This document shows positions 291 through 50,555 of a stretch of DNA of 64,000 nt, in pieces. Under the pieces are notes generated by a model. That model worked only from the letters and a program-made list of their open reading frames with translations. It had not been told where the DNA came from and searched no databases. The translations under genes were made by a program, and so were the position numbers. The stretch is from Desulfobacterales bacterium (GTDB taxonomy: Bacteria; Desulfobacterota; Desulfobacteria; Desulfobacterales; JAIPEE01). Each line of letters starts with the position of its first letter. The stretch's first letter is position 1. The stretch is from positions 1 through 64,000 of the forward strand of contig JAIPEE010000011.1 of NCBI GenBank assembly GCA_021737275.1, written 5' to 3'.

Positions 291-343
291 ATAACTATAC
301 TAAATACCTCTTTTGGAGTATAACAATCAAGAGAGGTGTTTTT

Positions 344-20212: not shown

Positions 20213-20315
20213 TATAATTAATTAAGTTTGAACCGGATTAGCAGAAATAGTATAATTATCACCCAACTATATTTTATGTTAAAACACTTTTAATTTATAT
20301 TAAGGAACACTTTGG

Positions 20316-20582
20316 ATGACAGAACCGATAACCGCTGATCAGATTGAAGAAGCTCTTTTTGATTTTATTAAGTCAAAACTTGTTGCGCCTGGTGTTGATT
20401 TTGATAGTGATACAAAGCTTGCTGATATAGGGATAGACTCCATATCCCTTGTTGAATTGCTTTTATTCCTCGAAAGAAGTTTTAGTATTCGCATTCCGGA
20501 TTCCGACCTTACCCGTAAAAATCTTTTGACAATCAATACACTTGCCGTATGTGCGAGTCGCTATGAATCGGTTATCTTGTGA
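20316..20582 (+). CDS. acyl carrier protein
   Basis: LADIGIDSISLVELLLFLERSF (DS phosphopantetheine motif). Confidence 0.9.
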   Translation: MTEPITADQIEEALFDFIKSKLVAPGVDFDSDTKLADIGIDSISLVELLLFLERSFSIRIPDSDLTRKNLLTINTLAVCASRYESVIL

Positions 20583-21913
20583 GTAAAAATCAAGATTCAA
20601 CCGATTTACTACCTGGGAAAATTCGTCTGACAGGCGGCGATTATTTCTTGCTGGCGCTTGATAACAAGAGCGACACTACTACCCGGACCCGGTTAAGTGG
20701 AAATATTTGTCAACTTCTGATAACGCTCTCTTATCCGGTTGATCCTGATCGCCTGAGATCAGTACTTGCGCAGTCATCGTTTGCTCAATGGCTTCATGGA
20801 CTCTGTTTTTCACGCCCCTTACCATTTATGAATCCACGCTGGCTTGCAAATCGTCATGGTGAATCAATTCCAGTGAAGACACACAGATCGGAATCATCCG
20901 GTAAAAACAGCGAAAAACACGGCAATATAAGGTTTGATTTATTTGATAAGGAATCTGAAGGCACCGGAGTGCTGTTTACCTGGCCTCATGCATTGATGGA
21001 TGCACGTGGCGCAGAGGTTTTTATACAGAACCTTAATATAGTTGAAAAGGATGGCCATGACCGTGACGGCCTGATAAACCTGAGGCATTGTGATTCCTTA
21101 CTCCGTCGGATACAGTCAATGAAGACATTCGGATCCCGTATGAATAAAGCTCGCAGATCCGTTCACTATATTACTAACGCCAGCCGTGAACCCTTAGCAG
21201 CTTTTTCACCAATCAACAGTTTGTCTTCCGGAGCAACTCAATCGACCCGAATTATTTTTTTCAATGAAGATGAAACTTCTCATATTGAAGAGCAGTGCTA
21301 TATATCCGGCGCCAATTTTATGAAAAGTCTTTTTTTCATGGCTGCTTCAATAAAGGCGGTAAAGGCGTGCTTATCCAAGCGTAACATAAAAGAGGGTGCC
21401 ATTGTTGTTCCTGTTCCTAAAAATCTGCGATTACGTGGGAAGCCGGGTCCGGCTTTTGCAAATCATATCTCAACCATGACTTACCGTGTCGATAAAGATG
21501 AGGCAATCAGTGTTTCACATATCGTATCGATCCTGAAAGAACAGATGATGAACCAGATGCGGGCAGGAATCCCCGAAGATTACGAGTTGATGATGAACCT
21601 GTTTCGCCGGATGCCGCTTTCTCAGTATTCAAAGATTTTGAGGGGGCCGACTAAGGGGAAAATTGCGACATTCTTTTTTTCTGATGTAGGTGAAAGCTTT
21701 AAGGGCATGGATACTTTTCTCAGTGTTCCCGTAAAGGATGTGACACACTTTGCACCGGTGGGGTTTCCTCCGGGATTGGCTATTGTTTTTATGCGGTATA
21801 AAGGGATGTTACGAACTGTTATTTCATATGTTAAGGATTGTTTTGAGAAGATGGATATTGATTTAATGGAAAGTGCTTTGAGGCAGGGGCTACTGGATGA
21901 AGGACGCCGATGA
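20579..21913 (+). CDS. condensation-domain/wax-ester-synthase-like acyltransferase
   Basis: HxxxD-type motif in LFTWPHALMDARGAEVFI; GTG start overlaps the ACP stop (GTGA). Confidence 0.6.
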   Translation: MSKNQDSTDLLPGKIRLTGGDYFLLALDNKSDTTTRTRLSGNICQLLITLSYPVDPDRLRSVLAQSSFAQWLHGLCFSRPLPFMNPRWLANRHGESIPVKTHRSESSGKNSEKHGNIRFDLFDKESEGTGVLFTWPHALMDARGAEVFIQNLNIVEKDGHDRDGLINLRHCDSLLRRIQSMKTFGSRMNKARRSVHYITNASREPLAAFSPINSLSSGATQSTRIIFFNEDETSHIEEQCYISGANFMKSLFFMAASIKAVKACLSKRNIKEGAIVVPVPKNLRLRGKPGPAFANHISTMTYRVDKDEAISVSHIVSILKEQMMNQMRAGIPEDYELMMNLFRRMPLSQYSKILRGPTKGKIATFFFSDVGESFKGMDTFLSVPVKDVTHFAPVGFPPGLAIVFMRYKGMLRTVISYVKDCFEKMDIDLMESALRQGLLDEGRR

Positions 21914-23310
21914 AGATTCTTTTGATTTCCGTTAACCGTGAGCGAATGCCTTATCCTGTGGCACCTATTGGCGCATTATATATTGTTTCCGCTGTAAAGA
22001 AGGCGGGCCATGAAGTGGATTTTCTGGATATGGCTTTTGTGAAATTCGCCCTTCGTGTTATTAAATCTAAATTAAAATCAGCATCTTATGATGTTATTGC
22101 GCTAAGCATACGAAACCTGGATGATTGTTCTTTTTGCAACCGGAAAAGTTATGTTGAAAATACGAAAAATATTGTTGATGCAATCCGACGTTGGAGTGAT
22201 GCGCCATTGGTACTGGGCGGGAGCGGCTTTTCCGTTTCTCCCAAGCAGTGGCTTGAGAATCTGAAGGCACCGTATGGTGTGGTTGGTGAGGGAGAGCACG
22301 CCTTTATTCAACTGCTTGATCGGTTAACTGCGGGTAAAACGCCTGAAGGAATTCCCGGAGTCGTCTCTTCTGATCGTGGCTCAGTTTATCAGCCGCCTGA
22401 TTTTTTATCGGATATGTCAGTAAGGGATGTCTCTTTTCCTGCACATGAACGCTGTGAATATAGACGCTATCAGAAGTATGGCGGTTTTGTCAGTATTCAG
22501 TCAAAACGGGGGTGTCCCTTCAAATGTATTTACTGTGTATATTCTGCCCTGGAAGGAACCGCTTACCGGTTGCGTCCCCCTGTAGAAGTGGTTGATGAAA
22601 TAACACAGATTCAAGGGGATCAGAAAAGCGACTGTTTCTTTTTTACCGACAGTGTTTTTAATTCACCCTGCACCCATGCAATGGATATTTGTCAGGAAAT
22701 CATTCGACGTAATTTAAAAATTAAGTGGATGGCATACTGCAATCCGGTTGGTTTTGATGCGCAACTTGCAAAAGCCATGATTCAATCCGGTTGTGTGGGG
22801 GTAGAGTTCGGTCTGGATAGTGCCGTTGATAAGATGCTGGATGCCCTGGGAAAACCTTTTAACGAACGGGATATTATCACCTGCTTTGATGCTGCAAATC
22901 AGAATAAACTTCCTTTTGCCGTTCACCTTTTGTTTGGCGGTCCGGGTGAAACACTTGATGATATTTATCAGGCACAACAAATTCTCAATAACTGTGCCCC
23001 TGCAAAGGCTGTTTTCGGGTCTGTTGGTATTCGTATTTATGAAAATACCGCTATAGCAGAGATCGCCCTTAATGAGGGTATAATCAATCAGCAGACAAAT
23101 TTTTTTGAGCCGGTATACTATCTGGCTGAATCGTTAGGCAGTGAACCTGTAACAGCCATTGACGCCATCGCACGGGAACGTTATGAATGGACAACACCGG
23201 TAGATTGGAATAAGCGTTCCATGCAGCTTATCCAGAAACTGATAAACCGGTGGGGCAGTCATCCCCAATGGCTAAATATTCGCAATTATGGAAAACATAT
23301 GAGGCGGTAA
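21910..23310 (+). CDS. B12-binding domain radical SAM protein
   Basis: N-terminal B12-like domain (MPYPVAPIGALYIVSAVKKAGHEVDFLD; LVLGGSGFS), CxxxCxxC in KRGCPFKCIYCVYSALEG; ATGA overlap with upstream gene. Confidence 0.92.
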   Translation: MKILLISVNRERMPYPVAPIGALYIVSAVKKAGHEVDFLDMAFVKFALRVIKSKLKSASYDVIALSIRNLDDCSFCNRKSYVENTKNIVDAIRRWSDAPLVLGGSGFSVSPKQWLENLKAPYGVVGEGEHAFIQLLDRLTAGKTPEGIPGVVSSDRGSVYQPPDFLSDMSVRDVSFPAHERCEYRRYQKYGGFVSIQSKRGCPFKCIYCVYSALEGTAYRLRPPVEVVDEITQIQGDQKSDCFFFTDSVFNSPCTHAMDICQEIIRRNLKIKWMAYCNPVGFDAQLAKAMIQSGCVGVEFGLDSAVDKMLDALGKPFNERDIITCFDAANQNKLPFAVHLLFGGPGETLDDIYQAQQILNNCAPAKAVFGSVGIRIYENTAIAEIALNEGIINQQTNFFEPVYYLAESLGSEPVTAIDAIARERYEWTTPVDWNKRSMQLIQKLINRWGSHPQWLNIRNYGKHMRR

Positions 23311-23321
23311 ACAAATTTGAT

Positions 23322-24518
23322 ATGAAGTCGGAAATCCGAAAATGTGATGTGCTTGTTGTTGGCGCAGGTGCAGCAGGGATCGGCGCAGCTGTTGGTGCGG
23401 CGAGGCAGGGTGCGCATGTGCTCGTGATCGAAAAATATGGATTTCCCGGGGGGTTAGCTACTGCCGGTTTGGTGGGCATGATCTGCGGCCTCTACCAGAG
23501 GGGTGGAGACAATGCCAGATATATTAGTAACGGTTTTGCAAAAGAGTTTGCTGAACGGTTAACGGCTTTGCCTGAAATATTTCCATGTAAACTGTTAGAG
23601 GGCCTTTGGGTGCTTCCCTACGATCTTGCAGATTTTGGACAGGTCGCCAATACCGTTGTTTGTCAGGAAAAGACAATAGAACCGGTTTATCATGGTGTTG
23701 TGGCCGGCGTTAATACTGAGGCGGAGCATGTTAGTAACGTTCATACATTGGTCTGGAATCGTAATATCACTTTTGAGCCAACAAGTGTTGTTGACTGTAC
23801 GGGAGAAGCTACGGTTATTGCACTTGCCGGAGGCGCAACCGTTAAAAACACTATTGATCAAAACCCGGCCATACTGTTTGATATGACAGGTGCTACTACT
23901 AACCTTTGTAAACAATCTGATCGCCTTGCTGTTATGCGTAAAATTGTAAACGCAGTGGAACAAAAGAGGCTTCCGGAAATATGTCGCGGTATTTCATTTG
24001 TGCCGACGGTCAGAGGCGGGCAATATGTTCGCCTTAAATTGCCGCTTAAGTTTAATGAAGCGCGTCACTGGAACAGTCTTTCTCATCTTGAGACCGAAAC
24101 CCGTCTTATGGCCAATACACTCAGCCGATTTTTTGTTGAAGGCGTGCCCATGTTCAAACATGCCCGATTACGGTTAGCTTCGCAGGTTGGTATTCGTGCA
24201 GGGCGTCGTGCTGTTGGAAAGTCTACGTTAACAGAAAAAGATGTCCTTGAATGTCGTAAATACGATGATACGGCGGCACGTAATGCATGGCCAATAGAAA
24301 TCTGGAGCGATGGCGGGAGTCCTGAGATAAAGCATTTACCAGAGGGAGATTACTATGATATCCCGATGGGGTGCCTGATTTCTGAAAATCTGGAAAATAT
24401 GTATATGGCCGGACGATGCCTGTCCGCAACAGATGAAGCGATTGCATCCGCTCGTGTCATCAGTGCGGCGCTGGATACCGGATATGCGGCAGGAGCGGCG
24501 GCAGCTAAGTCAGGGTGA
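23322..24518 (+). CDS. FAD-dependent oxidoreductase
   Basis: CDVLVVGAGAAGIGAAVGAARQGAHVLVIEKYGFPGGLATAGLVG (Rossmann), C-terminal NMYMAGRCLSATDEAIASARV. Start moved to ATG 23322 to avoid a 61-bp overlap. Confidence 0.9.
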   Translation: MKSEIRKCDVLVVGAGAAGIGAAVGAARQGAHVLVIEKYGFPGGLATAGLVGMICGLYQRGGDNARYISNGFAKEFAERLTALPEIFPCKLLEGLWVLPYDLADFGQVANTVVCQEKTIEPVYHGVVAGVNTEAEHVSNVHTLVWNRNITFEPTSVVDCTGEATVIALAGGATVKNTIDQNPAILFDMTGATTNLCKQSDRLAVMRKIVNAVEQKRLPEICRGISFVPTVRGGQYVRLKLPLKFNEARHWNSLSHLETETRLMANTLSRFFVEGVPMFKHARLRLASQVGIRAGRRAVGKSTLTEKDVLECRKYDDTAARNAWPIEIWSDGGSPEIKHLPEGDYYDIPMGCLISENLENMYMAGRCLSATDEAIASARVISAALDTGYAAGAAAAKSG

Positions 24519-24549
24519 ATAAAACACAGGTGCTTTTATTGAACATATT

Positions 24550-26010
24550 ATGTCGGGAAACTTATTAATGAAAGTAACGGATATTCCATATCAGTCTGCT
24601 GAAAAATGGCCTGAACAGACTGCGATTATAGATAAGTCCGGATCACTGAGCTATGCTGATCTTGCAGAAAATATTGCCCGGTCAACGAAGCATTTAAAGG
24701 GTCTGGGCATTAAATCGGGTCATGGTGTGGGTGTGATGGCAGATAACGGGCGTGAATTTGTTATAAGCGCTTTTGCGGCCCTTGGCTGCGGGGCTACGGT
24801 AATGCCTGTCTGGCGGCAGATGAAAAATGCTGAACTGCTTGAAATGTTTAATGATGCGCCTATTCAAGCTATAATTCATGATTCCCGGGATGCTCATCGT
24901 TTCGATGAATCATCGGCGGATGTACCCATTCCCGGTGCCGGAACCATGAAACTGTCCTGGACCAATAATGAAGCTGGTGCCGCTTTTGCTTCTTTTGTGG
25001 ACGATCCGGCTTTTGTCCGATTTACTTCCGGAACAACCGGCAAGTCAAAGGGTGTTGTCCTTTCCCATAAGGGTGTTATTGAGCGTACGTATGCATCAAA
25101 TCGGTTGATTGGTCTTAATAATACGGACAAAATAATATGGGTGCTTCCCATGGCATTTCATTTTTTTGTGTCAATTGTTTTGTACCTGCGATATGGTTGT
25201 ACCATCATTGTCTGTCAGGATCATCTTGCTGAAACAATTCTTGATGCTGCAAATGATCACCAGGCTACCGTTCTTTATGCTTCACCAATGCACATTCGCA
25301 TGCTTACAGCGGACAAATCCGGACGCGGTTTTCCAAACCTGCGTTATGCCATCTCAACATCCTCAGGATTACCGCAACCGCTTTTTCAGACTTTTCATGA
25401 ACGGTTTGGCATTCCTGTTTCTCAGGCATATGGTATTATTGAAATAGGATTACCTCTGATTAATCTGGCCGCTCCTGTTGAGCGTCCTGATTCGGTCGGT
25501 AAACCTCAACCGGATTATGATGTTGCGATACTGGATGATAATTGTTGTGAAGTTCCCCGGGGTGAGATCGGACATCTGGCCTTTCGCGGGCCGGGCCTGT
25601 TTTCCGGCTATCTCGATCCCCCGCGACTGAGCAGCGAAGTTTTGAAAAATGGCTGGTTCTTTACGGGAGATATGGCGTCTGTTGATCATGAAAATTTTGT
25701 TTCAGTGAAGGGGCGGTGTAATGCGATGATTAATGTTGCCGGCAACAAAGTTTTTCCTGAAGAAGTTGAATCGGTTCTACTTCAGCATTCTGCTGTGGCG
25801 AAAGCGCATGTTTTCGGCCGGACACATTATATGATGGGTGAAGCTGTTTTTGCTGAAGTATCTTTGTACGATAAATATGAAACCATACCGGAACATGAAC
25901 TTATCACATTCTGCCGTGATCGGCTGTCATTTTTTAAAACCCCTCAAAAAATCTTCTTTACAACAGATATTGATGAAACAGCGAGCGGTAAAATCAAGAG
26001 AAACGTATGA
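24550..26010 (+). CDS. AMP-dependent acyl-CoA/acyl-ACP synthetase
   Basis: FVRFTSGTTGKSKGVVLSHKGV, GWFFTGDMASVDHENFVSVKGR, C-terminal ETASGKIKRNV. Confidence 0.92.
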   Translation: MSGNLLMKVTDIPYQSAEKWPEQTAIIDKSGSLSYADLAENIARSTKHLKGLGIKSGHGVGVMADNGREFVISAFAALGCGATVMPVWRQMKNAELLEMFNDAPIQAIIHDSRDAHRFDESSADVPIPGAGTMKLSWTNNEAGAAFASFVDDPAFVRFTSGTTGKSKGVVLSHKGVIERTYASNRLIGLNNTDKIIWVLPMAFHFFVSIVLYLRYGCTIIVCQDHLAETILDAANDHQATVLYASPMHIRMLTADKSGRGFPNLRYAISTSSGLPQPLFQTFHERFGIPVSQAYGIIEIGLPLINLAAPVERPDSVGKPQPDYDVAILDDNCCEVPRGEIGHLAFRGPGLFSGYLDPPRLSSEVLKNGWFFTGDMASVDHENFVSVKGRCNAMINVAGNKVFPEEVESVLLQHSAVAKAHVFGRTHYMMGEAVFAEVSLYDKYETIPEHELITFCRDRLSFFKTPQKIFFTTDIDETASGKIKRNV

Positions 26011-27175: not shown

Positions 27176-27739
27176 ATGAGAACTGCCGTATCAATTATGA
27201 TTGTGTTTTATATCTGCTGTTGTATACCGGTCAGTATATTTGCTGCGGGTGAAGAAATAGATTTGATGAGTGAACCTAACGTTTATACGCTTGTTTCACT
27301 GCACCCTGATGAACAAAACAACAGACTTTATACCGTAAACTATCAACTTCCCGGGTTTATTCCTATGTGTTCTGCCGTAGAAATTTTAAGCCTGAATGAT
27401 AAAAAACTTACATTCAAAGTAATTGGCAGAAACAAAACCTACACATATCTTTACCATAAAACATCACCTGAGTCTCTTAAAGAACATTTAAACAAATTTT
27501 TTGGTCCGAAATGCAATAATGCCGAAGTTAAAAAACTGAGTGAGGTTGATCAAAATGGTATTAGTATGGGAAGGGCGTCGATTGGTATGACTAAAAAAGG
27601 AGTTCTTTATGCACTTGGATATCCGCCAATGCATGTAACCTATTCTCTGGATATGAATGTTTGGACATACTGGAAAAATCGATTTGTAAAAATGGAAATT
27701 GAATTTGACAAAAATGGCCTTGTAACTGCAATACGGTAA
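27176..27739 (+). CDS. hypothetical exported protein (SmpA/OmlA-like C-terminus possible)
   Basis: Signal peptide; ASIGMTKKGVLYALGYPPMHVTYSLDMNVWTYWKNR resembles the GMTxxqVxxlLGxP pattern. Confidence 0.55.
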   Translation: MRTAVSIMIVFYICCCIPVSIFAAGEEIDLMSEPNVYTLVSLHPDEQNNRLYTVNYQLPGFIPMCSAVEILSLNDKKLTFKVIGRNKTYTYLYHKTSPESLKEHLNKFFGPKCNNAEVKKLSEVDQNGISMGRASIGMTKKGVLYALGYPPMHVTYSLDMNVWTYWKNRFVKMEIEFDKNGLVTAIR

Positions 27740-28740: not shown

Positions 28741-31191
28741 TCAGGTTTTGTCTCTTGACCAAACCCAGGCATAATTAATCATAACAAATAAAAAACCACT
28801 ACCTATACCCAGCAATGCTGTAAAGCCGATATTGTGAAGTGCAGGATGCCTTGCAAAAAGAAGAGCCCCTATACCAAACAAGGTTGTCAGTGCAGAAACT
28901 GTGACTGCACTACCGGCATGAGAAACTTCATTTTGTGACCTGAATGAAGCATGGCCGAGAAAAAGGGAGTAGTCCACAACAAGTCCAAAAACAAAAATGA
29001 TAACAAGCACGGCCATCAGATTTAAAGGAATATTAAACCATCCCATAAAACCAAATGTAAAGATAATGGCCTGTGCAAGCGGTAGAAAAAACCGGATGGT
29101 TCTGAAAAGATTTCCGGTATAAATTGACAGCAGGAGAATGGTTGAAAAAAGTGCAAGGCTACCCAGCTTAACAAATTCACTTAAAATTAATTCAAGAATT
29201 TTGCTGACAAAAGATTTCCCGCTTGCAGCAAATGCAAAGGGGACATCTTCTTTCAGCTTGCTGCCAAAATTGTTGATTTCAGACATGTTACTAAGAGAAA
29301 AGCGTATCAGCAGTGTACTATGATGTCTTCCGGTTGAAAGCTGACTGGAAATCATTTGTTCCAGCAGGGGCTGGGTTAATATTTTTGTAAGGTCAAGATC
29401 CGGCATTGTTCCGGGAAGTTTTTCAATTTGACTGGTCAGAAATGATGAGCGCAGGCCATGTTTAGTTACGATTTCAGTGAGATCGGTAATCAGGCTTGTC
29501 TTTTTGTGACTGTTCCAGAAATGCTCCCAGCGGTTACGGTTGGCAAGACGTATTTTACCGGAAGGAAGAATCCCGGCCAGGGATGTATAGCTTTGAATAC
29601 CCGCAGAATCTTTATGGGCTGCCAGCCAGTTTTCTATCTGTTCACCTCTTTGAAAAAGCGTTTCCTGATCGTTCGCACGGGCAATAATGTATGCTGAATT
29701 CATTAACGACGGGAACGTTGACCTCAGCGTATTCATATCCTGCTCTATCGATGGGGAAACCATATTCAACTTTTCAACATCGCCGTCAAATTCTATTTTG
29801 AAAAGTCCGGGGAGCGCAATCAGTGTAAGGCCAAGAGAAAACACCATCAATGATGTTCTGCTTTTTTGAGTTGTTTTTTGAAAAATATCCATAAGTGCAG
29901 TTAAATTCAGTACGGCGGTATTTTTATTGTCTTTTTGCGAGATTAAAAGCGGAAGTATAAATAAAACAAAAAGAACAGAAACAATAATGCCGATCACGCT
30001 GAACTTGCCAAGCTGACTGTAACCTGGAAAGCTTGATGCACTGAGAATCAGAAAAGCGGAAAGAGTTGTTACAGCGCATAACAAAAGCGGAGTTCTGATG
30101 CCTGATACCATTTTAAGAATATTATATTGAGTTAATTCACTTTTTTTTAACTGATCGGCCCTGAATAAAACATGGATACCAAAATCCACGACAATCCCAA
30201 TCAACACACCGCCCATCCCCAATACAATGGCTGAAATTCCCGGAAGAGTTAAGGCAGTCACTGCACTGGCTGCCAGTATGCCAAAAAATGCCGGAATCAG
30301 TGCCATAACAAAATAATGTTTTCTTTTAAATATAAGCAGGCATAGTAATGTGATTGCTGTAAGAGAGATACTGACGGTAACCGTTATGTCACGCTTTATA
30401 GTGGATGCGTTGTGAACGGCAAAGCGATGCCCGGATAACCATGCGATATTGATATCAGGGTTAATGGTTTTGATATCGGCAATAATCCGGTTGATATCAT
30501 TAACCAGCAACATGCCCTTATTGGAGTCGGTATCTTTTATTACGGGCTTTGCCGTTAATATGATACTCCGGTTATCAGCAGAGAACAGATATCCATTACT
30601 GATTACCATATCGCTGTTTTTGGTACGTGCACGTTCCAGCTTATTTGTCAGGAATGTATCGATTCCCAGGGGATCTGTTTTAAAAAGTTGAGATAAGAAC
30701 GGAGATGGGGTTTCTATGAGTAATCGTTTCCAGCCGGCCAGCCTGTTATCGATGGCCTCCGGTGTCAGAAGATTTGTCAACAGCGCTTCATCTTCTGCAG
30801 TAAAAAGATCGGCACGAAAGGTGCGTAATACATTCAGCGCATCCATCATATCTCCGGCATCCCACCTGGCGAAAACCCGCTCTACCCATGAACTGTTTCG
30901 CAGTTGATTTGCAAGTTCGTCCACTGAATTGATCAGCGTTGCTTCATTGGTATCAGCACCGGTCATTTGAACCATGAAAACCAGGTGATTGGATTTCTGA
31001 AAGTTTTTCAATACCTCTGAATAACTCCGGACCGATTCTTCTTCCAAGGGAAGAAGGTCCATTATATCTTCTTCCAGTTTCAGTGAGGAGGCAAAATAAA
31101 CAAGAAATGCACCAATGACAAGACAAAGGAATAACGACGATTTGCGGTATCTGAAAAGAAGAATCTGAATTTTATCAATTAAAGAATTCAT
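28741..31191 (-). CDS. MMPL/RND family exporter (ApeM-like)
   Basis: 816 aa, repeated TM blocks, GVLIGIVVDFGIHVLFR and VFGLVVDYSLFLGHA RND-type motifs; ATGA overlap with the upstream gene. Confidence 0.88.
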   Translation of the reverse strand: MNSLIDKIQILLFRYRKSSLFLCLVIGAFLVYFASSLKLEEDIMDLLPLEEESVRSYSEVLKNFQKSNHLVFMVQMTGADTNEATLINSVDELANQLRNSSWVERVFARWDAGDMMDALNVLRTFRADLFTAEDEALLTNLLTPEAIDNRLAGWKRLLIETPSPFLSQLFKTDPLGIDTFLTNKLERARTKNSDMVISNGYLFSADNRSIILTAKPVIKDTDSNKGMLLVNDINRIIADIKTINPDINIAWLSGHRFAVHNASTIKRDITVTVSISLTAITLLCLLIFKRKHYFVMALIPAFFGILAASAVTALTLPGISAIVLGMGGVLIGIVVDFGIHVLFRADQLKKSELTQYNILKMVSGIRTPLLLCAVTTLSAFLILSASSFPGYSQLGKFSVIGIIVSVLFVLFILPLLISQKDNKNTAVLNLTALMDIFQKTTQKSRTSLMVFSLGLTLIALPGLFKIEFDGDVEKLNMVSPSIEQDMNTLRSTFPSLMNSAYIIARANDQETLFQRGEQIENWLAAHKDSAGIQSYTSLAGILPSGKIRLANRNRWEHFWNSHKKTSLITDLTEIVTKHGLRSSFLTSQIEKLPGTMPDLDLTKILTQPLLEQMISSQLSTGRHHSTLLIRFSLSNMSEINNFGSKLKEDVPFAFAASGKSFVSKILELILSEFVKLGSLALFSTILLLSIYTGNLFRTIRFFLPLAQAIIFTFGFMGWFNIPLNLMAVLVIIFVFGLVVDYSLFLGHASFRSQNEVSHAGSAVTVSALTTLFGIGALLFARHPALHNIGFTALLGIGSGFLFVMINYAWVWSRDKT

Positions 31192-31886
31192 TCAGTGCCT
31201 TCGGGTAAGATAAATGCGTTATTGGTTTTCAGTCCCATCCACATTTCGGTAATATCAAGTTCAAATGAATAACCTGTTTCATGGTTGACCAGTTTGATAT
31301 TGGAAGGTATCCGTGTATCTATACCCTCAAAATTTTTCCAATTGTTATAACTGCATTCACGAACCAGAACCCGTTTTGAATACTCCTTTGAGCGAAGAAG
31401 TATATTCGCTTCAGAAAACTCAAAAACATGGATAGTGTCACTATCGGATCTTAACAAAATACAGTCGGATCCACATGAGTTCAATCCGCACTCTTTTCGC
31501 ATAACTGAAAAGATATGGTAAAGGTCATCTGCCGGGCCGATTTTAATAAACTTTTCCGGAATTTGCTCAGGAAAGGCCAGAAGATGAGTTTTGCCATTTA
31601 CATAGAGAAAATCAAAAAAGGTTAAACCGATTTCGCCCATACCCTTGGAACGCATGTTTATACCATATAGAGCAGTATAGGTAACAAAGTCCATCTCCTT
31701 ACCGGATATATCCAGTTTAACCCGACCCGAAAAACGGCATGCGTTGGGGAAAATTCGGCGGAGTATTTCAAATTGCTTTACTTGTTTATAGGACGGCTCA
31801 GCTACCGGGTAAGTGAAAATGATTTTTGAAGCACAGGACAGCATGAAAACACAAAGAAAAATTCCTGCTGCCCAACGGAACTTCAT
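31188..31886 (-). CDS. lipoprotein, possible DUF3261/ApeN-like
   Basis: Lipobox MLSCAS; position between LolA-like and MMPL genes as in APE clusters. Confidence 0.5.
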   Translation of the reverse strand: MKFRWAAGIFLCVFMLSCASKIIFTYPVAEPSYKQVKQFEILRRIFPNACRFSGRVKLDISGKEMDFVTYTALYGINMRSKGMGEIGLTFFDFLYVNGKTHLLAFPEQIPEKFIKIGPADDLYHIFSVMRKECGLNSCGSDCILLRSDSDTIHVFEFSEANILLRSKEYSKRVLVRECSYNNWKNFEGIDTRIPSNIKLVNHETGYSFELDITEMWMGLKTNNAFILPEGTE

Positions 31887-32554
31887 TCGGGTACCTCCAG
31901 GTTAAAACCAACCGGGTTGCTTAATGAAAAGAGCGCCATATCCAGCACCTGATTTTCCTTCTCATTGCTAAAAAGAATTTCAAGCTTATCTTCACTGCCT
32001 TCGAGGATAAGGAGTCTGTTAACCCTGAGTTTATCAGGATGCAGGAACAGGGTAATTGATGTGATCATCCCAGCCATACTTTCAGAGTGAGGTGTCAACA
32101 CAATTTCAATGCCATTTTGCCGGTGAACCGTAATATTGTACTCTTTTTCAACCGCTGAGAAATCACCCTTTAGAATCTTCATCATCTGATTCATAACCTC
32201 GGAAAACATTTTCGATTCAGGGAGGTTCATTTTGTTCAGAGAACCGTTTTTGACTTCAAACCGTGCGACATCACCCTGATTAAAGATAAATGCGGTTTGA
32301 TATGGGTTTCGAGTCTCCCATCGTAACTGGTCCGGTGTTATAAAATAGAGTTTGCCTTTGGAGACTAATGATTCTTCAAAGACCTTCAGATGCCGGATCT
32401 GTTCAAAATCGGTTTCAAGGGTTTTTACTGCGCTAAGTGATGTTTGAATTTTACTTAAGATCTCTTCGGGTGTGACATCCAAACTCTGTTCAGCAAAAAC
32501 TGATGCAGGAGCTAACCATAATGCCAACAGGAATATTACTATATATCTTAACAT
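31883..32554 (-). CDS. LolA-like outer-membrane lipoprotein carrier (ApeL-like)
   Basis: Signal peptide; LSAVKTLETDFEQIRHLKVFEESLVSKGKLYFITPDQLRWETRNPY. Confidence 0.85.
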   Translation of the reverse strand: MLRYIVIFLLALWLAPASVFAEQSLDVTPEEILSKIQTSLSAVKTLETDFEQIRHLKVFEESLVSKGKLYFITPDQLRWETRNPYQTAFIFNQGDVARFEVKNGSLNKMNLPESKMFSEVMNQMMKILKGDFSAVEKEYNITVHRQNGIEIVLTPHSESMAGMITSITLFLHPDKLRVNRLLILEGSEDKLEILFSNEKENQVLDMALFSLSNPVGFNLEVPE

Positions 32555-32561
32555 AGGAACT

Positions 32562-33551
32562 CTACCTTTGTAACGTTACCAGGCTGTTGCAGTGTCCTGA
32601 AAAATTTGAGCAGCCCAAAACCGATTCGGCCTGAAGCAGCAATGTGTTGCCTGGGAGAAAGCCATGCTTTAATGAGAGCGCCGCTGTTGCCAGAGAAAGT
32701 GAATCATTACTGGGCATGTATCCATATTGTGATGAGTAATTAAAGTACCTGATACCACTTACGTTAACCGCATCCGTTGAATTATTAGCGGTAATAACCG
32801 CATCAAGGCTTTTCATAATATTATGATCCGGCTTTGTGGAACCCATATGAATATCTCCGATGAAACCATATTTGGGATTTTCCCGGTTTTTTTGAATAAG
32901 AAAACAGGTAAAGGCTTCGGATGGTTTAATATCCAAGTCACTATGGCATATGGCCGATGCATATTTTCTGACATCGTGATTTTCTTCACCGATTCCTGCC
33001 AGGACAAGATCCACCATATCGGATTCAAGAAAGATGCGGGCTGTCTGAAAAACCTGTGCAGTGGTCATTTCAAAACAGGTTACCGTTGTTGTCGGACCCT
33101 GTATTTTTAGCCCGATGGAAACATGGGCGGCCAGTGAATTATGTACCGAACTTGAAAAGTGAAGCGGTGAGGCACACGTGTCGCCATGGTCAATAAAGGT
33201 GTCCTGAAAATTAAAGGTGGCATTCAGGCATCCATAAGCTGTTCCAAAAACGATTCCGATTCTCAGGTTTTCCCTGCTGCTTATTTCTGCATCTTTTAAG
33301 GCCAGGTTGCAGGCTAGAAGAGCTGTCTGAGCAAACGGTTCCATTCGCCTGCGCATTTTTGCAGGGATGTATTCATCAAGACCTTCAGGTTTGGCGTTAA
33401 AGCAGCGTAATGTTTTTTCACCGTCAGGCGTTATAATACACGCTTCAGATGTTTCAGCACTCGCTTTCCCCTGGAGCCCGTTCCAGAACTTTCGGCTTCC
33501 GGATCCAAAGGGTGTGACCATACCAAGGCCTGTGATTGAAGCTTTTATCAT
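32562..33551 (-). CDS. beta-ketoacyl synthase-like, degenerate (chain-length-factor-like)
   Basis: MIKASITGLGMVTPFGSGSRKFWNGL start; nucleophile region TTVTCFEMTT; HGTGT and GH(T)xGAAG motifs not present (ITANNSTDAV; SSQYGYMPSNDS). Confidence 0.75.
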   Translation of the reverse strand: MIKASITGLGMVTPFGSGSRKFWNGLQGKASAETSEACIITPDGEKTLRCFNAKPEGLDEYIPAKMRRRMEPFAQTALLACNLALKDAEISSRENLRIGIVFGTAYGCLNATFNFQDTFIDHGDTCASPLHFSSSVHNSLAAHVSIGLKIQGPTTTVTCFEMTTAQVFQTARIFLESDMVDLVLAGIGEENHDVRKYASAICHSDLDIKPSEAFTCFLIQKNRENPKYGFIGDIHMGSTKPDHNIMKSLDAVITANNSTDAVNVSGIRYFNYSSQYGYMPSNDSLSLATAALSLKHGFLPGNTLLLQAESVLGCSNFSGHCNSLVTLQR

Positions 33552-34732
33552 GCGGATCCCCTGAACAGCAGCGCTGAATTTGTGCCGCCAAAAGCCAGCG
33601 ATGTTGATATGGCCGCTTTTTTATGAACGGACAATGAGGTTTTTGTGGGTTTAAGAGCACATTCAGGGTCGGCCGTTTCAAAACCGGCCGTTCCGGGTAT
33701 TTTGCCGGACATTAATGATATTGTTGTAAATACGGCTTCCAATCCCCCGGCTGCACCCAGTGTATGACCGGTATAGGCTTTGGTGGAAACAACAGGTACG
33801 GACTCAAAAAGGTCATGCAATACAGACCCTTCAACCTGGTCGTTGTTTTTTGTGGCAGTACCATGCGCATTGATAAATGAAATATCTGAAGGCGTCAGAT
33901 CTGAATTTTTAAAGGCGGTATCTATTGCTCTCCTCAACCCCATACCGCCAGGGTGAGGCGCTGTCATATGATATGCATCGGAACAGGTGCCATATCCACT
34001 TATTTCAGATAAGATTTTCACTCCCCTGGTTTTAGAAAAATTCTCACGCTCAAGAATGAGAATACCGGCGCCTTCACCAAGGTTTAAACCGGTGCGGTCA
34101 GCATCAAAAGGACGGCAGGGTTCCGGAGACATGACCATGAGTGAAGAAAAACCCAGGTAGGTTGTTCTGCATAATTCATCCGTTCCACCGGTTATTACTA
34201 CATCACAAAGATCATTCTTAAGCCACCACATTGCGCTGCCGATTGCATCTGTGGCAGATGAACAGGCATTGGCTATGGTAGAAACGGGCCCTGTGGTGCC
34301 TAAATGTGCGCTCAAAAACAGTGACGGGTTATTATTCAGATAAACATCAATGCTGCTGAAACCGGGCATCTCATTGTTTCGATAGGCCCGGTAATAGGGC
34401 TCATTATTAAGCGTACAGGCAACGGTTGTCCCTAGGCAGATACCGGTACGTGCATTTTGAAGCTTTTCCGTATCCAGGGATGCCTGAGCCAATGCTTCAT
34501 GTACTGCACAAAGGAGCAGCCGGTTGGACCGGGTAATGGTCCGGTTTTCAATGACAGGAAGCTCTGTCTCAACTTCAAAAACCGGGAAGGGTGAATTCAT
34601 ATCCACCTTAAAAAGTGTTGGCGGATGGGGATTCCTTAAGCCGGATAACATGCTGTCCATATTTTCCTGAACACAGTTTCCGGCGGCACTGACAGCGCCC
34701 AACCCGGTTATACCGACCTTTGCTTTCATCAA
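33548..34732 (-). CDS. beta-ketoacyl-ACP synthase (FabF-like)
   Basis: TIANACSSATDAIG, FINAHGTATKNND, AYTGHTLGAAGGLEA (Cys-His-His). Confidence 0.94.
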   Translation of the reverse strand: MMKAKVGITGLGAVSAAGNCVQENMDSMLSGLRNPHPPTLFKVDMNSPFPVFEVETELPVIENRTITRSNRLLLCAVHEALAQASLDTEKLQNARTGICLGTTVACTLNNEPYYRAYRNNEMPGFSSIDVYLNNNPSLFLSAHLGTTGPVSTIANACSSATDAIGSAMWWLKNDLCDVVITGGTDELCRTTYLGFSSLMVMSPEPCRPFDADRTGLNLGEGAGILILERENFSKTRGVKILSEISGYGTCSDAYHMTAPHPGGMGLRRAIDTAFKNSDLTPSDISFINAHGTATKNNDQVEGSVLHDLFESVPVVSTKAYTGHTLGAAGGLEAVFTTISLMSGKIPGTAGFETADPECALKPTKTSLSVHKKAAISTSLAFGGTNSALLFRGSA

Positions 34733-34986
34733 GCAGCCTTTGTCTCACGAATATATTCAGCCAGTGTGCCTACAGATTGAAAAATTTCACGGGCAGATTC
34801 CATATCTTTGATTTCAATTTCAAAGTGACGTTTCAATATGACAACCAGCTCAACTGCATCAAGCGAATCAAGCCCGAGTCCCTCATCGCCAAAAAGAAAG
34901 CTGTCATTCTTAATCTCTTCAGGTTTGACATCAATCAGTTTAAACTCATCAATAATAATTTTTTTTAATTGTTCTTCAATTTCCAA
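34729..34986 (-). CDS. acyl carrier protein
   Basis: GDEGLGLDSLDAVELVVILKRHFEIEI. Confidence 0.94.
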   Translation of the reverse strand: MEIEEQLKKIIIDEFKLIDVKPEEIKNDSFLFGDEGLGLDSLDAVELVVILKRHFEIEIKDMESAREIFQSVGTLAEYIRETKAA

Positions 34987-34996
34987 AATAATACTC

Positions 34997-35905
34997 CTAA
35001 TTTTTCAGGGTGCTCTTGTTCTTTTCCCAAAAGTTAAAAAAGTTATACCACATCAGGGGATATTTTTTGAGGAATTGTTCCAGAAAATCCGCATATCGCC
35101 CTGCCAGAATGCTTTGCAGCTCTTCTTTGGTATAATTATCTCCGGTTAACCCTTCAGTTAAACATTTATATTCAATTTTATATTCCATTGGTCCGGTTCT
35201 GGCCGTCAGCAGTGCAACAATGTCAGCGCCTGTTGATGTGGCCAGATGATAGGGCAATACCGGAAAAAGTGCATCTTCTCCCAAAAAAGAAGTCTTTATG
35301 GTATGCGCCGTATCTACCCTGTCGCCCATAATTGAAAGGCAATCACCATCCATTAAAACCTTGGTCGCTTCTATCATTCCACCGAGATGGCCCCGTGGAG
35401 AGATAAAACTGAAACGATCTCTTTGTGATGCAAGATCAAAAAAATGCCCGCCCTGCCAGTTTTCAATATCAAAATGGAAAAAAACGCGGCAGGCCATTTT
35501 GTCAATAGTAGCCATTACACTTTGCCAGGGGCCAACATGTGTTGTCAGCAGAACAATACCGGTTTTTTTCCCCGAAAGATGATATAGTGTTTCCCGGTCA
35601 GGAAACGAAACTTTCATGCGATCATGGCCCAATATGCCCAGGGCAACCTGTTCTATTATAATACAGCCAAATCCGTAAATATATCGCAGGCTGATAAGAT
35701 GCCGCATTGCGGTGTGCCTGTCAGGAAAACGGTGTCTTAAATAATGATCTGATGATCGAAATACCGAAGGCCTGAAAATCACATAATACGGGATAACCGC
35801 CATTAATATGAGATAGGCCGGAATCAGGCCTAACAATCTTAAAACCCAGTGAAAAAAAGCAAATCCAAGAAAATTGCCGTAAGTTGGTTGTTTTGTTTCT
35901 GACAT
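34997..35905 (-). CDS. LpxL/HtrB-like lysophospholipid/lipid A acyltransferase
   Basis: GIVLLTTHVGPWQSVMATIDK (H-x4/5 motif), CLSIMGDRVDTAHTIKTSFLGEDALFPVLPYHLA. Start moved to ATG 35905. Confidence 0.85.
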   Translation of the reverse strand: MSETKQPTYGNFLGFAFFHWVLRLLGLIPAYLILMAVIPYYVIFRPSVFRSSDHYLRHRFPDRHTAMRHLISLRYIYGFGCIIIEQVALGILGHDRMKVSFPDRETLYHLSGKKTGIVLLTTHVGPWQSVMATIDKMACRVFFHFDIENWQGGHFFDLASQRDRFSFISPRGHLGGMIEATKVLMDGDCLSIMGDRVDTAHTIKTSFLGEDALFPVLPYHLATSTGADIVALLTARTGPMEYKIEYKCLTEGLTGDNYTKEELQSILAGRYADFLEQFLKKYPLMWYNFFNFWEKNKSTLKN

Positions 35906-35918
35906 AATAAATAAAAAT

Positions 35919-37106
35919 TTATGGCGTAATCTGTTTTTTTTCAGCTTTATACCGGAACCAGACACGAGAAAGTATATATATTAAAAAGCCTGTAATTAAT
36001 GCAAATACAGGGGCACACACAATTGCCCCCAGCAGATATTCAAAAAAGCGCAAATGAACTTCCTTAAATACAGCCTGAAACGAGACCGCGTAAAAAAACT
36101 CGCCATGAAGCAAAAAGTATCCAATCTCAAAAGCAATTACCGGCACAAAAGGGGGCGCACAAAAATGGCTGATGTTTAAAGCGATAAGCCGGTTAAGCCT
36201 TAACCGGGTAGCGGCAAAGACAATTGTAATACTGTGCATGGCAATGAGCGGAAGTGTACCTAAAAATATGCCGAGCATACATGCAATGGTTATTTCCCGT
36301 GGAGATGTCGCCTCCGTAAAAAGAAGTTTAAGACTTTTCTTTGGCTGCTTAACCGAAAGTTTTTTTTCACCGGCGGCTTCAGTCTTAAAAAGTATTTTAT
36401 GTGGAACCGGCAAAAAATTGCGGATTACCAGCTGCGTATATGTCCAGGATATGCGAGCATTATCTATCACAGACCTGAAATGCGATGCATTAATTGTCTC
36501 TTCACTGTAAGAAACAGAAACATCTGCACTGTTAACATCAAGACCTGCCCAGACCCCTTTTACCAGAGCTTCCACTTCGAAATCATAGCGGTCGGCCTTG
36601 AAATTAATTTGATTAAACAATAATAACGGGTAAGCACGGTATCCGCTTTGTGTATCCTTTAACTGTAAACCGGTGCACATCCAGACCCAGAAGTTCGAAA
36701 ACTTTCTTCCAAAACGGCTTGAAAAGGGTACGTTTTCGTCCTGAAAATTCCTGTGCCCCAATATGATACTGTGGGGATTACTCTCCAGCGCTGTAACAAA
36801 TTTATGGATATCCGCAGGATCATGCTGGCCATCGGCATCCACCGTAATAATATGGGTATAGCCGTTTTCTGTTGCCCATAGGGCAGCTTTAATCAGGGCA
36901 ATGCCTTTTCCCCTGTTTTGCTTCCAGCCGATAGTAAACAGATTATCATGGCCGGCTAAAGTTTCCATGGCGCCGTCGGTTGAACCGTCATTAACAACAA
37001 GAACCGGAAATGACTTTTCAAGGGCACTTCCGACAATATCCGAAAGTGTAGCACGGTTATTATAAGTCGGGATGACGATCAGAATTTTAAGGCGTTCTTT
37101 ATTCAT
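35919..37106 (-). CDS. GT2 family glycosyltransferase fused to DUF2062-like membrane domain
   Basis: ILIVIPTYNNRATLSDIVGSALEKSFPVLVVNDGSTDGA, TVDADGQHDPADI; C-terminal PREITIACMLGIFLGTLPLIAMHS... Confidence 0.88.
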   Translation of the reverse strand: MNKERLKILIVIPTYNNRATLSDIVGSALEKSFPVLVVNDGSTDGAMETLAGHDNLFTIGWKQNRGKGIALIKAALWATENGYTHIITVDADGQHDPADIHKFVTALESNPHSIILGHRNFQDENVPFSSRFGRKFSNFWVWMCTGLQLKDTQSGYRAYPLLLFNQINFKADRYDFEVEALVKGVWAGLDVNSADVSVSYSEETINASHFRSVIDNARISWTYTQLVIRNFLPVPHKILFKTEAAGEKKLSVKQPKKSLKLLFTEATSPREITIACMLGIFLGTLPLIAMHSITIVFAATRLRLNRLIALNISHFCAPPFVPVIAFEIGYFLLHGEFFYAVSFQAVFKEVHLRFFEYLLGAIVCAPVFALITGFLIYILSRVWFRYKAEKKQITP

Positions 37107-38479
37107 AAATTTTTACTTATTGCCCGTTTACGCTTTCTGTCTGCTTTCAGCAGATAATCCCATATCGGGCCACGGTGGCCCATTTGATGAAACATGGTTA
37201 CCATTTCAAGATCCTGATCACCCAACGGGTATATCCATTCCCTATGGCCGTTAAAGGCATCTCTAAGCCTCTGGTCAACAACTTTTGTTTCAAGGCCCGG
37301 CGCCAGGTAATATTTCGGTTCAAGCAGATTATCATTACCATTAATCAGATTTTGTTCTATTGCCAGTTGCTGAACTTTTGTCCCGGGAATAATCCTGATC
37401 CCGATGCATGCCATAATAAGCGCATTCTTAAGTTCATGAAAATTTTTCAGACCCTCTTCTATCGTTTCTGCTGTTTCACCCGGACCGCCAAAAATAATAA
37501 AATGTGCGCCGGCTATTCCTTCTTCAGCAAAAAGTCTGTTGCTATGAATTACCGTTTCCCATGTAAAATCCTTTCCAAGGGCCTTAAGGGTCGTATCACT
37601 GGATGCATCCGTACCCCACTCAACACTTTTAAGGCCCGCCTCTTTCAGCAGTTGAACATTTTCACGTTGAAACCCGGACGGTTTTAAAAAAGCAGTAAAT
37701 GGAATTTTAATATCACGTTTCACCAGTTCTTCAGCAATTTCCAGATAATGTCCCTGCGGGTCATTAAATACGGAATCAGCTATTGAAAAATAATCCATTT
37801 CATATTGATCACGCATCTGTTCTATTTCATCAACAACATTTGCCGGAGTCCTGAAACGATAATTTTTTCCTTCTATGATCGGGTAGGCGCAGTAGCCGCA
37901 ATTCATGGGGCATCCGCGTTTTGTGTGCAGATTCAGCATGCCGCCATGTTTCAGATAATATTTGGAGAGCGCAGGATTACGATATGACGAGCCAAACGCT
38001 GCAACACTTTTATTTTGTGATGCATAAAATATTTTATTCTTCGGTATGGAACAATTCATCAGTTGCGCTATAAGTTGAGGAAATAAAAATTCACCTTCGC
38101 CGACAATTCCGTAGTCCGCACCAATTTTGCTGAGTAGTGCTTCGGGGTAGAGTGAATAACCTGAACCGCCGAGAACGATTGGCGCATTACTTATCTTTCG
38201 AAGCTGTTTAGCCAGCTCTTTAAAATCATCGGAATATGACTCAGCGTTAATATGGTTTAAATTATCATTATTACGAATGGAAAGCCCGATTACCTCCGGA
38301 CCAAATATTGTGCAGGCGGATTCCAGTTTATCTCCCAGGGAAGGAGATGCCAGCACATCATACTCGCAAACCTCATGCCCGGTGCTGATCAGTGCATCCG
38401 CAATCATTGCCATGCCAAGCGGATAGACGGGGTAGGGTTCTGTCGTTGTATTGCATGATATTAAAAGAATACGTGCCAT
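37103..38479 (-). CDS. B12-binding domain radical SAM protein
   Basis: PVYPLGMAMIADALISTGHEVCEYD, IVLGGSGYS, KRGCPMNCGYCAYPIIEGKNYRFR (CxxxCxxC). Paralog of 21910-23310. Confidence 0.93.
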   Translation of the reverse strand: MARILLISCNTTTEPYPVYPLGMAMIADALISTGHEVCEYDVLASPSLGDKLESACTIFGPEVIGLSIRNNDNLNHINAESYSDDFKELAKQLRKISNAPIVLGGSGYSLYPEALLSKIGADYGIVGEGEFLFPQLIAQLMNCSIPKNKIFYASQNKSVAAFGSSYRNPALSKYYLKHGGMLNLHTKRGCPMNCGYCAYPIIEGKNYRFRTPANVVDEIEQMRDQYEMDYFSIADSVFNDPQGHYLEIAEELVKRDIKIPFTAFLKPSGFQRENVQLLKEAGLKSVEWGTDASSDTTLKALGKDFTWETVIHSNRLFAEEGIAGAHFIIFGGPGETAETIEEGLKNFHELKNALIMACIGIRIIPGTKVQQLAIEQNLINGNDNLLEPKYYLAPGLETKVVDQRLRDAFNGHREWIYPLGDQDLEMVTMFHQMGHRGPIWDYLLKADRKRKRAISKNL

Positions 38480-38485
38480 AATTAC

Positions 38486-39754
38486 TTATCCGATTGCCTG
38501 CCTGTTCGTGATAGAACGACGATCGTTATTGATTGTCACCGGCTTATAGGTGTCGTCAGCAATCTCCCGCCGGATGACTTTCATAAACATATTACCCATC
38601 TGAACCTCCTGGGATTTTTCCTTATAAAAAGTATCCCAGGCGTAGTAAAAAGACTGCTGAAGCTCTTCCTGTGTCATCTGCTTGGGCTGAAACACAACCC
38701 GGTCACAGGTATAGTCTTCCCATCCATTTTTCAGAAGGCGTCCATTTTTTGCAAAAGAATTGCGGATAGGAGATTGCATGAAGGGCGTCAGAATTGTAAA
38801 TTCTGCCAGTTCAAGATTAATTTCAAGTAAAAAATCTACCATGCGTTTAATATCATCGACGGTCTGGTCGTCGGTGCCTAAAATAATGGTACCTTCAACA
38901 CCGATACCATGATCATGGTACCGTTTAACGCGGTCACGGATGACATCCGAGGTGTCCACAATCGCCTGATATACATACCAGGCACCTGCTTCATACGCCA
39001 GTTTCAGTAACTTGTCGTTATTCTTGATAGGATGACTGACCCATTTCTTTTTAAGCGGGATCATGGCCTTAAACAGCTCTTCTTCCCATGCATCGTTCTG
39101 TGCGAGGGAATTATCTACAATAAAGAGGCGATTATTTTCAATTTGAGAAAGCTCCTCAATAACTTTATCTATAGGTCGGGGCCTGAAAACTTTACCGCCA
39201 AGATATCCGGTGCAGCATGGGAAACAGTTAAATCTGCAGCCACGTGATGCATGAACAAGATCAACAAGCGGCATGCCGCGATAAGTATATTTTTCCCGAT
39301 TCAGGATATCTCTGCGGGCAGTGCCGACCAGCTCAATGGGCGGATGGTTTTTCAGGTAGTCATATCTGCTTTTCAGCTGACCATTTTTCAGATCATTCAG
39401 CACGGCTTCCATACGACCCTCGGTCTCACCGATAAAGACGGAATCAACATGTCGGGATACTTCATCTGCATGAAGCGTTGAAGAAATTCCGCCGGCAATA
39501 ACGGGAATGCCCATGTCACGATATGCTCCGGCTATAGCATATGCACGGGGAAGTTGTGCCGAAAGCATGATGGAAAGGCCGACAACGTCCGGGCTGTCAT
39601 CAATGACCAGCTCTTCCACATTTTCATCCAGAAAATCTACATCCACATAATCGGGTAAAGTTGCAGCAAAAACAACAGGACCGTGCGGCGGCAGATTAAA
39701 AGGTGTTTGTCGTTCCAGTTTTCGCCAAGTTGGATAAATCAGTTTCATTTTCAT
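38486..39754 (-). CDS. B12-binding domain radical SAM protein
   Basis: ASRGCRFNCFPCCTGYLGGKVFRPRPIDKVIEEL (CxxxCxxC), N-terminal B12-like domain. Confidence 0.92.
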   Translation of the reverse strand: MKMKLIYPTWRKLERQTPFNLPPHGPVVFAATLPDYVDVDFLDENVEELVIDDSPDVVGLSIMLSAQLPRAYAIAGAYRDMGIPVIAGGISSTLHADEVSRHVDSVFIGETEGRMEAVLNDLKNGQLKSRYDYLKNHPPIELVGTARRDILNREKYTYRGMPLVDLVHASRGCRFNCFPCCTGYLGGKVFRPRPIDKVIEELSQIENNRLFIVDNSLAQNDAWEEELFKAMIPLKKKWVSHPIKNNDKLLKLAYEAGAWYVYQAIVDTSDVIRDRVKRYHDHGIGVEGTIILGTDDQTVDDIKRMVDFLLEINLELAEFTILTPFMQSPIRNSFAKNGRLLKNGWEDYTCDRVVFQPKQMTQEELQQSFYYAWDTFYKEKSQEVQMGNMFMKVIRREIADDTYKPVTINNDRRSITNRQAIG

Positions 39755-39765
39755 AATAACAACTC

Positions 39766-40443
39766 TCAGTCTTTATTAAAAAAATCGAGTATGGATCCGA
39801 TTTTGTTTTTTTTAAATTCAAAATTATTTCCATCCGCTTTCAGAGTAAACACCTGATTTTCGGATGTGATAACACTTTTTTCCAGAACAATAAAAAAGGC
39901 CATAGGACAACCATTCAGGTCGGCCGGCGGGTTTTCAACAACACCTGCCAGCATCCGGTCTGATTTTTCTGACCTGATCATACGGACAGCACTTTTCAAA
40001 GCATCCATTCCAACGGTCTCAGGGTGATCGCCCACACAGAAGGTCGGGCCTCTCAAATCAAAGGAGACACAGCTTTCGCCCAGAACAATTACCGGCAGTG
40101 TATAAGAAAAAAGATTCGGGCTGCTCATGGCACCTTCATCCTCAAGGGTTGTCTGGTAATAATCCCTGTCTGTAATTATTGTATCATACAATGTAGAGAT
40201 GACCATTCCACATGTCATACTGTTTTTGTGATATGAAGCATCCTGTAATGCCAGCGCAGCAGCCGTGCATCCCATGCGGGTAAAATTATCGAACCGGCCC
40301 CATCTTTTGGGAATTTCAGGAAAAATTAATTTTGGTTCAGGCAGTGAAACAGTACCATTTTGCTCATGTAAAGAAACTTTATCTCCAAGTTTACCCCAGC
40401 CTGATATTGTAACAAAACCGCCGCCGGTCACATTGATATTCAT
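39766..40443 (-). CDS. truncated, nucleophile-less beta-ketoacyl-synthase-like protein
   Basis: 225 aa aligning by eye only to the KS N-terminal half; nucleophile region GPTFCVGDHPETVGMDAL lacks the TACSS pattern; no room for a C-terminal half before the next gene. Confidence 0.7.
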   Translation of the reverse strand: MNINVTGGGFVTISGWGKLGDKVSLHEQNGTVSLPEPKLIFPEIPKRWGRFDNFTRMGCTAAALALQDASYHKNSMTCGMVISTLYDTIITDRDYYQTTLEDEGAMSSPNLFSYTLPVIVLGESCVSFDLRGPTFCVGDHPETVGMDALKSAVRMIRSEKSDRMLAGVVENPPADLNGCPMAFFIVLEKSVITSENQVFTLKADGNNFEFKKNKIGSILDFFNKD

Positions 40444-45018: not shown

Positions 45019-45287
45019 ATATCAGCCTGTTTAGCGTTAATAAAATCGTATATATCGTTTATTGTTCTGATCGCACGTATTGTTTCCTCATCTTTTTCGC
45101 GAGAAATTTTGAAATTAAACGCTTTTTCCAGTGCAACAACCAGATCAACACTATCCAGACTGTCAAGCCCCAGATCGTCGTACAGTGTTGCATCAGGTGA
45201 TAATTCCGCTTCATCCAGTTCGAACTCGTCGACCAGAACGATTTTTACTTTTTCTTCAACATTATTATGGCTTGATTCCATTAACAT
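45015..45287 (-). CDS. acyl carrier protein
   Basis: YDDLGLDSLDSVDLVVALEKAFNFKI. Confidence 0.95.
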   Translation of the reverse strand: MLMESSHNNVEEKVKIVLVDEFELDEAELSPDATLYDDLGLDSLDSVDLVVALEKAFNFKISREKDEETIRAIRTINDIYDFINAKQADI

Positions 45288-49172: not shown

Positions 49173-49194
49173 AAGCCTTTAAAAATTTCTCCTG

Positions 49195-49821: not shown

Positions 49822-49830
49822 GATTGTAAA

Positions 49831-50547: not shown

Positions 50548-50555
50548 ATTACTCC

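Follow-up and report, generated by a model that had tools for sequence, protein, structure and literature searches.

The window analysed here is a stretch of 64,000 nucleotides of contig JAIPEE010000011.1 from a Desulfobacterales bacterium (assembly GCA_021737275.1), to whose positions the coordinates below refer. Between 20316 and 26010 it carries five plus-strand open reading frames (ORFs), coding for an acyl carrier protein (ACP), an HxxxD acyltransferase, a B12-radical S-adenosylmethionine (rSAM) enzyme, a FAD oxidoreductase and an AMP-ligase. This grouping, hereafter the module, is real and conserved across phyla, beyond what chance would produce. Gene content and motifs, the transferase's predicted fold, the conservation of the genes as a unit and their linkage to type II fatty acid synthesis (FASII) clusters lead us to put at about 55% the probability that the module is an accessory unit that loads, tailors and transfers an acyl group in an aryl-polyene/ladderane-type lipid pathway.

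The five ORFs are present where the initial annotation had placed them (table 1), with the overlaps it had described: GTGA between the ACP and transferase genes and ATGA between the transferase and rSAM genes. The translational coupling proposed for these three genes is thus supported. The FAD gene was listed from a GTG at 23250, which overlaps the rSAM gene by 61 bp. Because its homologues begin about 25 residues downstream, the start is very likely the ATG at 23322, 11 bp past the rSAM stop codon. For the ligase gene, the ATG at 24568 is as plausible a start as 24550, leaving a gap of 49 or 31 bp, respectively, after the FAD gene. The catalytic motifs are intact throughout the module: the DSIS serine, H137xxxD141, C202xxxC206xxC209, GxGxxG, an A3 motif and a C-terminal Lys. 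The GC content of the module (0.39–0.48) is not clearly distinct from that of the neighbouring cluster (0.44) or of the window (0.42).

The order ACP-HxxxD-rSAM-FAD-ligase is identical at six homologous loci from several phyla (L070, L071, L072, L073, L075 and L118; L-numbers are labels of homologous loci in the compared genomes), the ACP of L118 being found by profile only. One Desulfobulbaceae metagenome-assembled genome (MAG) and one from Sumerlaeota have it, as do Verrucomicrobiota MAGs and a further family of the same phylum; a rearranged version, ligase-ACP-HxxxD-rSAM-FAD, occurs in Desulfobacterales. The closest relatives of the module rSAM among 390 genomes of the order are 40–49% identical, and further relatives (48–55%) belong to Desulfobulbaceae, Sumerlaeota and Verrucomicrobiota MAGs. 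In a tree of 68 rSAM sequences, a single clade (support 100/99) contains 18 members, all encoded beside the transferase, compared with none of the other 50. The same order in several phyla and the association with one clade of the tree place the grouping beyond chance. The gene-neighbourhood search suggested in the initial annotation therefore confirms that the five genes co-occur elsewhere.

Homologues of the HxxxD protein occur in 31 of 289 Verrucomicrobiota, six of 395 genomes of the window's own phylum, five of 392 Planctomycetota and one of 40 Sumerlaeota genomes sampled. Forty-five transferase loci were compared; they are a non-random sample, partly chosen by the rSAM, so that the rSAM count is biased, and some of their contigs are short. 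An ACP gene is adjacent in 43 of them, a module-type ligase gene is close in 33 and a FAD gene in 26. Many Verrucomicrobiota loci have ACP, HxxxD and ligase genes without rSAM or FAD genes, often inside a FASII cluster. The minimal unit is therefore ACP, acyltransferase and ligase (carrier, transfer and loading), and the rSAM and FAD enzymes are optional additions. The five genes had been described as one unit; they are conserved as such, with this smaller core inside. Within the rSAM clade, the FAD gene is absent from only two of 18 loci (L043 and L053), both at a contig end.

The 444-residue HxxxD protein itself has no match in library scans against Pfam and NCBIfam, and it was therefore placed through the profile of its homologues and its structure. 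Residues H137 and D141 (PHALMDARG) are invariant in 21 homologous sequences, as in the HxxxD superfamily. The homologue profile matches condensation domains of non-ribosomal peptide synthetases (NRPS) in the PDB (5.8e-8). The predicted structure is confident (predicted local distance difference test score, pLDDT, 85.4; predicted template modelling score 0.88) when built with the closer alignment rows; 17 divergent rows gave a pLDDT of 65 only. In Foldseek searches this model matches the condensation domain of the surfactin synthetase SrfA-C (2.8e-18) and AzeD, with a template modelling score of 0.68–0.70 for AzeD and 0.58–0.70 over condensation domains and AzeD, indicating the two-lobed fold resembling chloramphenicol acetyltransferase. 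PapA5, AzeD and NRPS condensation domains thus share the motif and the predicted fold with the module transferase, but only 11–14% identity. The Pfam Condensation model matches only some of the homologues. The HxxxD-type acyltransferase of the initial annotation is thereby upheld. Of the two folds it had suggested for comparison, the condensation fold is found in the model; membership of the wax ester synthase/diacylglycerol acyltransferase group, judged by Pfam, is not supported, one of 17 homologues matching WS_DGAT_C at an E-value of 0.14. Longer homologues (ORFs of 565–589 residues) are found in three Verrucomicrobiota loci (L134, L135 and L136), with an ACP match close by and no ligase, rSAM or FASII marker; they represent a further genomic context of the family.

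The condensation fold raises the alternative that the module is a dissociated NRPS-like unit, in which stand-alone adenylation, carrier and condensation proteins activate and condense an amino acid. The ACP carries its phosphopantetheine serine (Ser42) within GIDSIS, the DS being invariant across 11 module ACPs. The PDB entries closest to its profile are 6cxt, which we take to be a Bmp1-type ACP, an aminoacyl carrier protein and PltL. The latter two would suit an NRPS-like unit, as would the adenylation domains of LgrA among the top PDB matches of the ligase. The LgrA score is, however, inflated, because two adenylation domains (88 and 80 bits) are summed. In amino-acid adenylation domains, an Asp of the A4 motif binds the alpha-amino group. 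None of the module ligases has this Asp: at the position of Asp235 all 21 have His, as do acyl/aryl-CoA ligases, and the motifs M-x-x-HF and G-I-x-E are found across them. An acyl or aryl acid is therefore a likelier substrate than an amino acid. No NRPS or polyketide synthase megasynthase was found among the scanned window genes. We reject the NRPS-like alternative on the A4 motif and regard it as very improbable. ApeH, an AMP-ligase that loads an aryl acid directly onto an ACP, is a precedent for the module ligase (PMC8253772).

The module rSAM has a B12-binding domain and a CxxxCxxC motif, whose Cys triad is present in all 18 module enzymes, and is thus a cobalamin-dependent radical SAM protein. 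It belongs to the NCBIfam lipid-biosynthesis family TIGR04072 (rSAM_ladder_B12), with 372.5 bits barely above the curated cut-off of 360, and the module clade is the only sampled clade of this family associated with the HxxxD transferase. By profile, the closest solved structure is TsrM (1.9e-53), a B12-dependent tryptophan C2-methylase in which the unique iron has Glu273 as its ligand and Arg69 blocks the lower cobalamin face (PMC8992657, PMC13331322). The Arg is common to both: Arg68 of the module enzyme aligns with Arg69, and all 68 TIGR04072-like sequences have Arg there. Glu273, in contrast, corresponds to Val249, with Val in 18 of 18 module enzymes. The full non-radical mechanism of TsrM is consequently rejected, and the binding of SAM to the cluster could follow the usual mode. 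From these residues, we infer that the cobalamin has no lower ligand and that SAM binds normally; this fits a methylase and does not prove one. Of the 50 TIGR04072-like sequences that fall outside the module clade, about 15 have no CxxxCxxC triad and retain the B12-domain Arg and Asn; these are possibly B12 proteins dead for radical SAM chemistry.

A NAD-dependent DNA ligase-like gene and housekeeping genes lie 5′ of the module. On its 3′ side there are genes for an MscS-like channel and a BamE-like protein, followed by a 23-kb minus-strand FASII cluster. The latter encodes MMPL, LolA, several ketosynthase-like proteins, a lipid-A-type acyltransferase, a family 2 glycosyltransferase (GT2) with DUF2062, two B12-rSAMs, a 4HBT thioesterase, an ApeP/ApeI-like dehydratase, a FlxY-like ligase, a PlsC-type acyltransferase, desaturase-like and PagL-like proteins, a ketoreductase and an aromatic amino acid lyase. 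These genes mark it as an aryl-polyene/flexirubin-like FASII cluster that also carries radical SAM genes of the ladderane type, among them a TIGR04072 paralogue of the module enzyme. The ketosynthase, dehydratase, ketoreductase, ligase, thioesterase, LolA and MMPL genes correspond to those expected of an aryl polyene cluster. The flexirubin models were not reached: the cluster scores 447 bits against a cut-off of 520 for the FlxY ligase and 439 against 700 for the FlxA lyase.

Table 1. Position and supporting evidence of the module genes and of neighbouring features in the window.
Feature	Position	Strand	Evidence
Acyl carrier protein, 88 aa	20316..20582	+	Pfam PP-binding 2.7e-8
Stand-alone HxxxD acyltransferase, condensation-domain superfamily, 444 aa	20579..21913	+	motif, homologue profile, predicted structure
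B12-binding radical SAM enzyme, 466 aa	21910..23310	+	Pfam B12-binding 5.8e-14, Radical_SAM 7e-17; TIGR04072
FAD-dependent oxidoreductase, ~398 aa	23322..24518	+	Pfam FAD_oxidored 1.1e-75; GxGxxG
AMP-forming acid ligase, 486 aa	24550..26010	+	Pfam AMP-binding 1.1e-65
Aryl-polyene/flexirubin/ladderane-like FASII cluster	28741..52142	-	gene content
TIGR04072 paralogue of module rSAM	37103..38479	-	539 bits against cut-off of 360; 37% over residues 2-432
BamE-like protein	27176..27739	+	weak BamE match below cut-off
Promoter-like site TTGAAC-17-TATAAT, 5′ of ACP gene	20228..20256	+	weak; promoter-like sites in region not above shuffles

Linkage between module and FASII genes is also seen beyond the window, relatives often being located in or next to such clusters. 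Ketosynthase, GT2, second B12-rSAM or MMPL markers lie near 24 of the 45 transferase loci, in various arrangements and phyla, loci with an rSAM cross-hit only being excluded from this count. At L035–L040 the module is contiguous with FASII genes. At L036, L037, L039 and L040, the FASII cluster holds related ACP, HxxxD and FAD genes together with an rSAM of a second type; at L035 no such rSAM is present there. In two scanned loci this second type is HpnR-like (class B, methylase-type) and stands beside the same ACP, transferase, FAD and ligase genes, an arrangement that is consistent with methylation. Homologues of the BamE-like protein adjoin the module ACP or a ketosynthase-like gene at L035, L036, L039, L040, L088 and L142. 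The initial annotation had overlooked both the TIGR04072 membership and the downstream FASII cluster with its paralogue. Its view of the five genes as a compact mini-cluster holds for their co-occurrence, and does not hold for a free-standing pathway, since the rSAM falls in TIGR04072, a FASII cluster is adjacent and related modules are often part of one.

Several observations weigh against a role in lipid synthesis as proposed here. The module lies on the plus strand and the FASII cluster on the minus strand, with the MscS-like gene between them, and the two are therefore not one operon. No ketosynthase-type marker was found in the DNA examined at L117, L119, L131, L140, L144 and L145, where some stretches are short, and the only marker at L071 is an rSAM cross-hit. 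A ketosynthase search of the module genomes does not discriminate, as an ordinary FabF may match as well. The HpnR-like enzymes score below the HpnR cut-off, and the ligase product could be a CoA thioester instead. The opposite strands and the modules without a ketosynthase marker, together with the fact that the module brings its own ligase and ACP, would suit an independent small-molecule pathway that produces a free acyl ester or amide of its own, the adjacent FASII clusters being mere neighbours. Such a pathway appears unlikely in view of the markers at 24 loci and the contiguity at L035–L040.

Searches of the open literature revealed no paper describing this gene composition, just as the initial annotation had recognised no named pathway, and we know of no characterised pathway composed of these five genes. 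Aryl polyene and flexirubin clusters share with the neighbouring cluster genes for ketosynthase, dehydratase, ketoreductase, thioesterase, GT2, acyltransferase, LolA, MMPL, a FlxY-like ligase and an aromatic amino acid lyase. The ape set of E. coli (apeA-R), unlike the module, has no radical SAM enzyme, HxxxD condensation-type protein or FAD oxidoreductase, and the module genes thus lie outside the defined ape gene set (PMC8253772). The FASII clusters of anammox bacteria and Desulfotalea combine SAM radical enzymes with phytoene-desaturase-like oxidoreductases, a ligase and a glycosyltransferase; the parts of that report consulted describe no condensation-type acyltransferase in them, unlike the module (Rattray 2009, PMC2649909). 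This pairing, and the naming of TIGR04072 after ladderane-type lipid clusters, would agree with a starter-unit or ring-forming module, whose ACP product primes ketosynthases or whose rSAM and FAD enzymes build a carbocycle instead of methylating. We consider this quite unlikely: a ketosynthase would not be expected to receive its primer through a condensation-fold HxxxD enzyme, the core occurs without rSAM and FAD genes and, according to the same report, Desulfotalea made no detectable ladderanes (PMC2649909).

The following scheme for the accessory lipid unit that we favour is inferred as regards its substrate and acceptor, the sequence of its steps, and the methylation, oxidation and export. 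The AMP-ligase would adenylate a carboxylic acid that is not an alpha-amino acid and load it on the module's own ACP. Two enzymes would then modify the bound acyl group: the B12-radical SAM enzyme, whose most likely activity is C-methylation, and the FAD oxidoreductase, through desaturation or another two-electron oxidation. The HxxxD enzyme, translationally coupled to the ACP, would move the acyl group to a hydroxyl or amine of a lipid assembled by the enzymes of the adjacent FASII cluster, and the MMPL and LolA proteins would export the finished lipid to the outer membrane. The outline in the initial annotation, of an acyl group loaded on an ACP, modified by radical SAM and redox enzymes and then transferred, is supported in part, for its ACP-based scheme and its HxxxD acyltransferase.

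Other features of the region were also observed. The aromatic amino acid lyase (50556–52142, minus strand) has the ASG motif of the methylidene-imidazolone (MIO) cofactor; its nearest models, histidine ammonia-lyase and flexirubin tyrosine ammonia-lyase, match below their cut-offs, and it would probably supply an aryl starter acid. The other B12/radical SAM protein encoded in the FASII cluster (38486–39754, minus strand; CRFNCFPC) is very well conserved across relatives, at 56–62%, and below every NCBIfam cut-off. Between the LolA and MMPL genes there is a protein of about 232 residues without a Pfam match (31188–31886, minus strand), with a 25% identical homologue likewise between LolA and MMPL at L118 (5873–6577). 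Proteins of about 245 residues, possibly of one family, are encoded beside a LolA or a dehydratase gene and the module at L073 (6795–7535), L072 (5549–6283) and L047 (5422–6162), and further at L049 (5359–6096), L048 (5821–6564) and L043 (4221–4958); the L073 member has no Pfam match. Downstream on the plus strand, a 2595-residue ORF (54078–61865), whose first 1141 residues show only a sub-threshold Chlam_PMP repeat match, is followed by a Kelch-repeat protein (61884–63161). A gene for an IS200-like (Y1) transposase lies at the window edge (278–1291, plus strand).

Radical SAM proteins encoded in ladderane-type FASII clusters have been under discussion since 2009, with no substrate assigned to them. 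The module clade of TIGR04072 brings with it a dedicated loading ligase, a carrier protein and a release enzyme, so that five proteins of ordinary size would suffice to test substrate and product in vitro. It is conceivable, if doubtful, that the TIGR04072-family enzyme and the flavin enzyme create, on the carrier, a methylated or carbocyclic acyl group without precedent, which the condensation-type enzyme would graft onto an aryl-polyene lipid, giving an undescribed lipid class present in several phyla. The module may also reveal an aryl-polyene/ladderane-type hybrid lipid chemistry in anaerobes.

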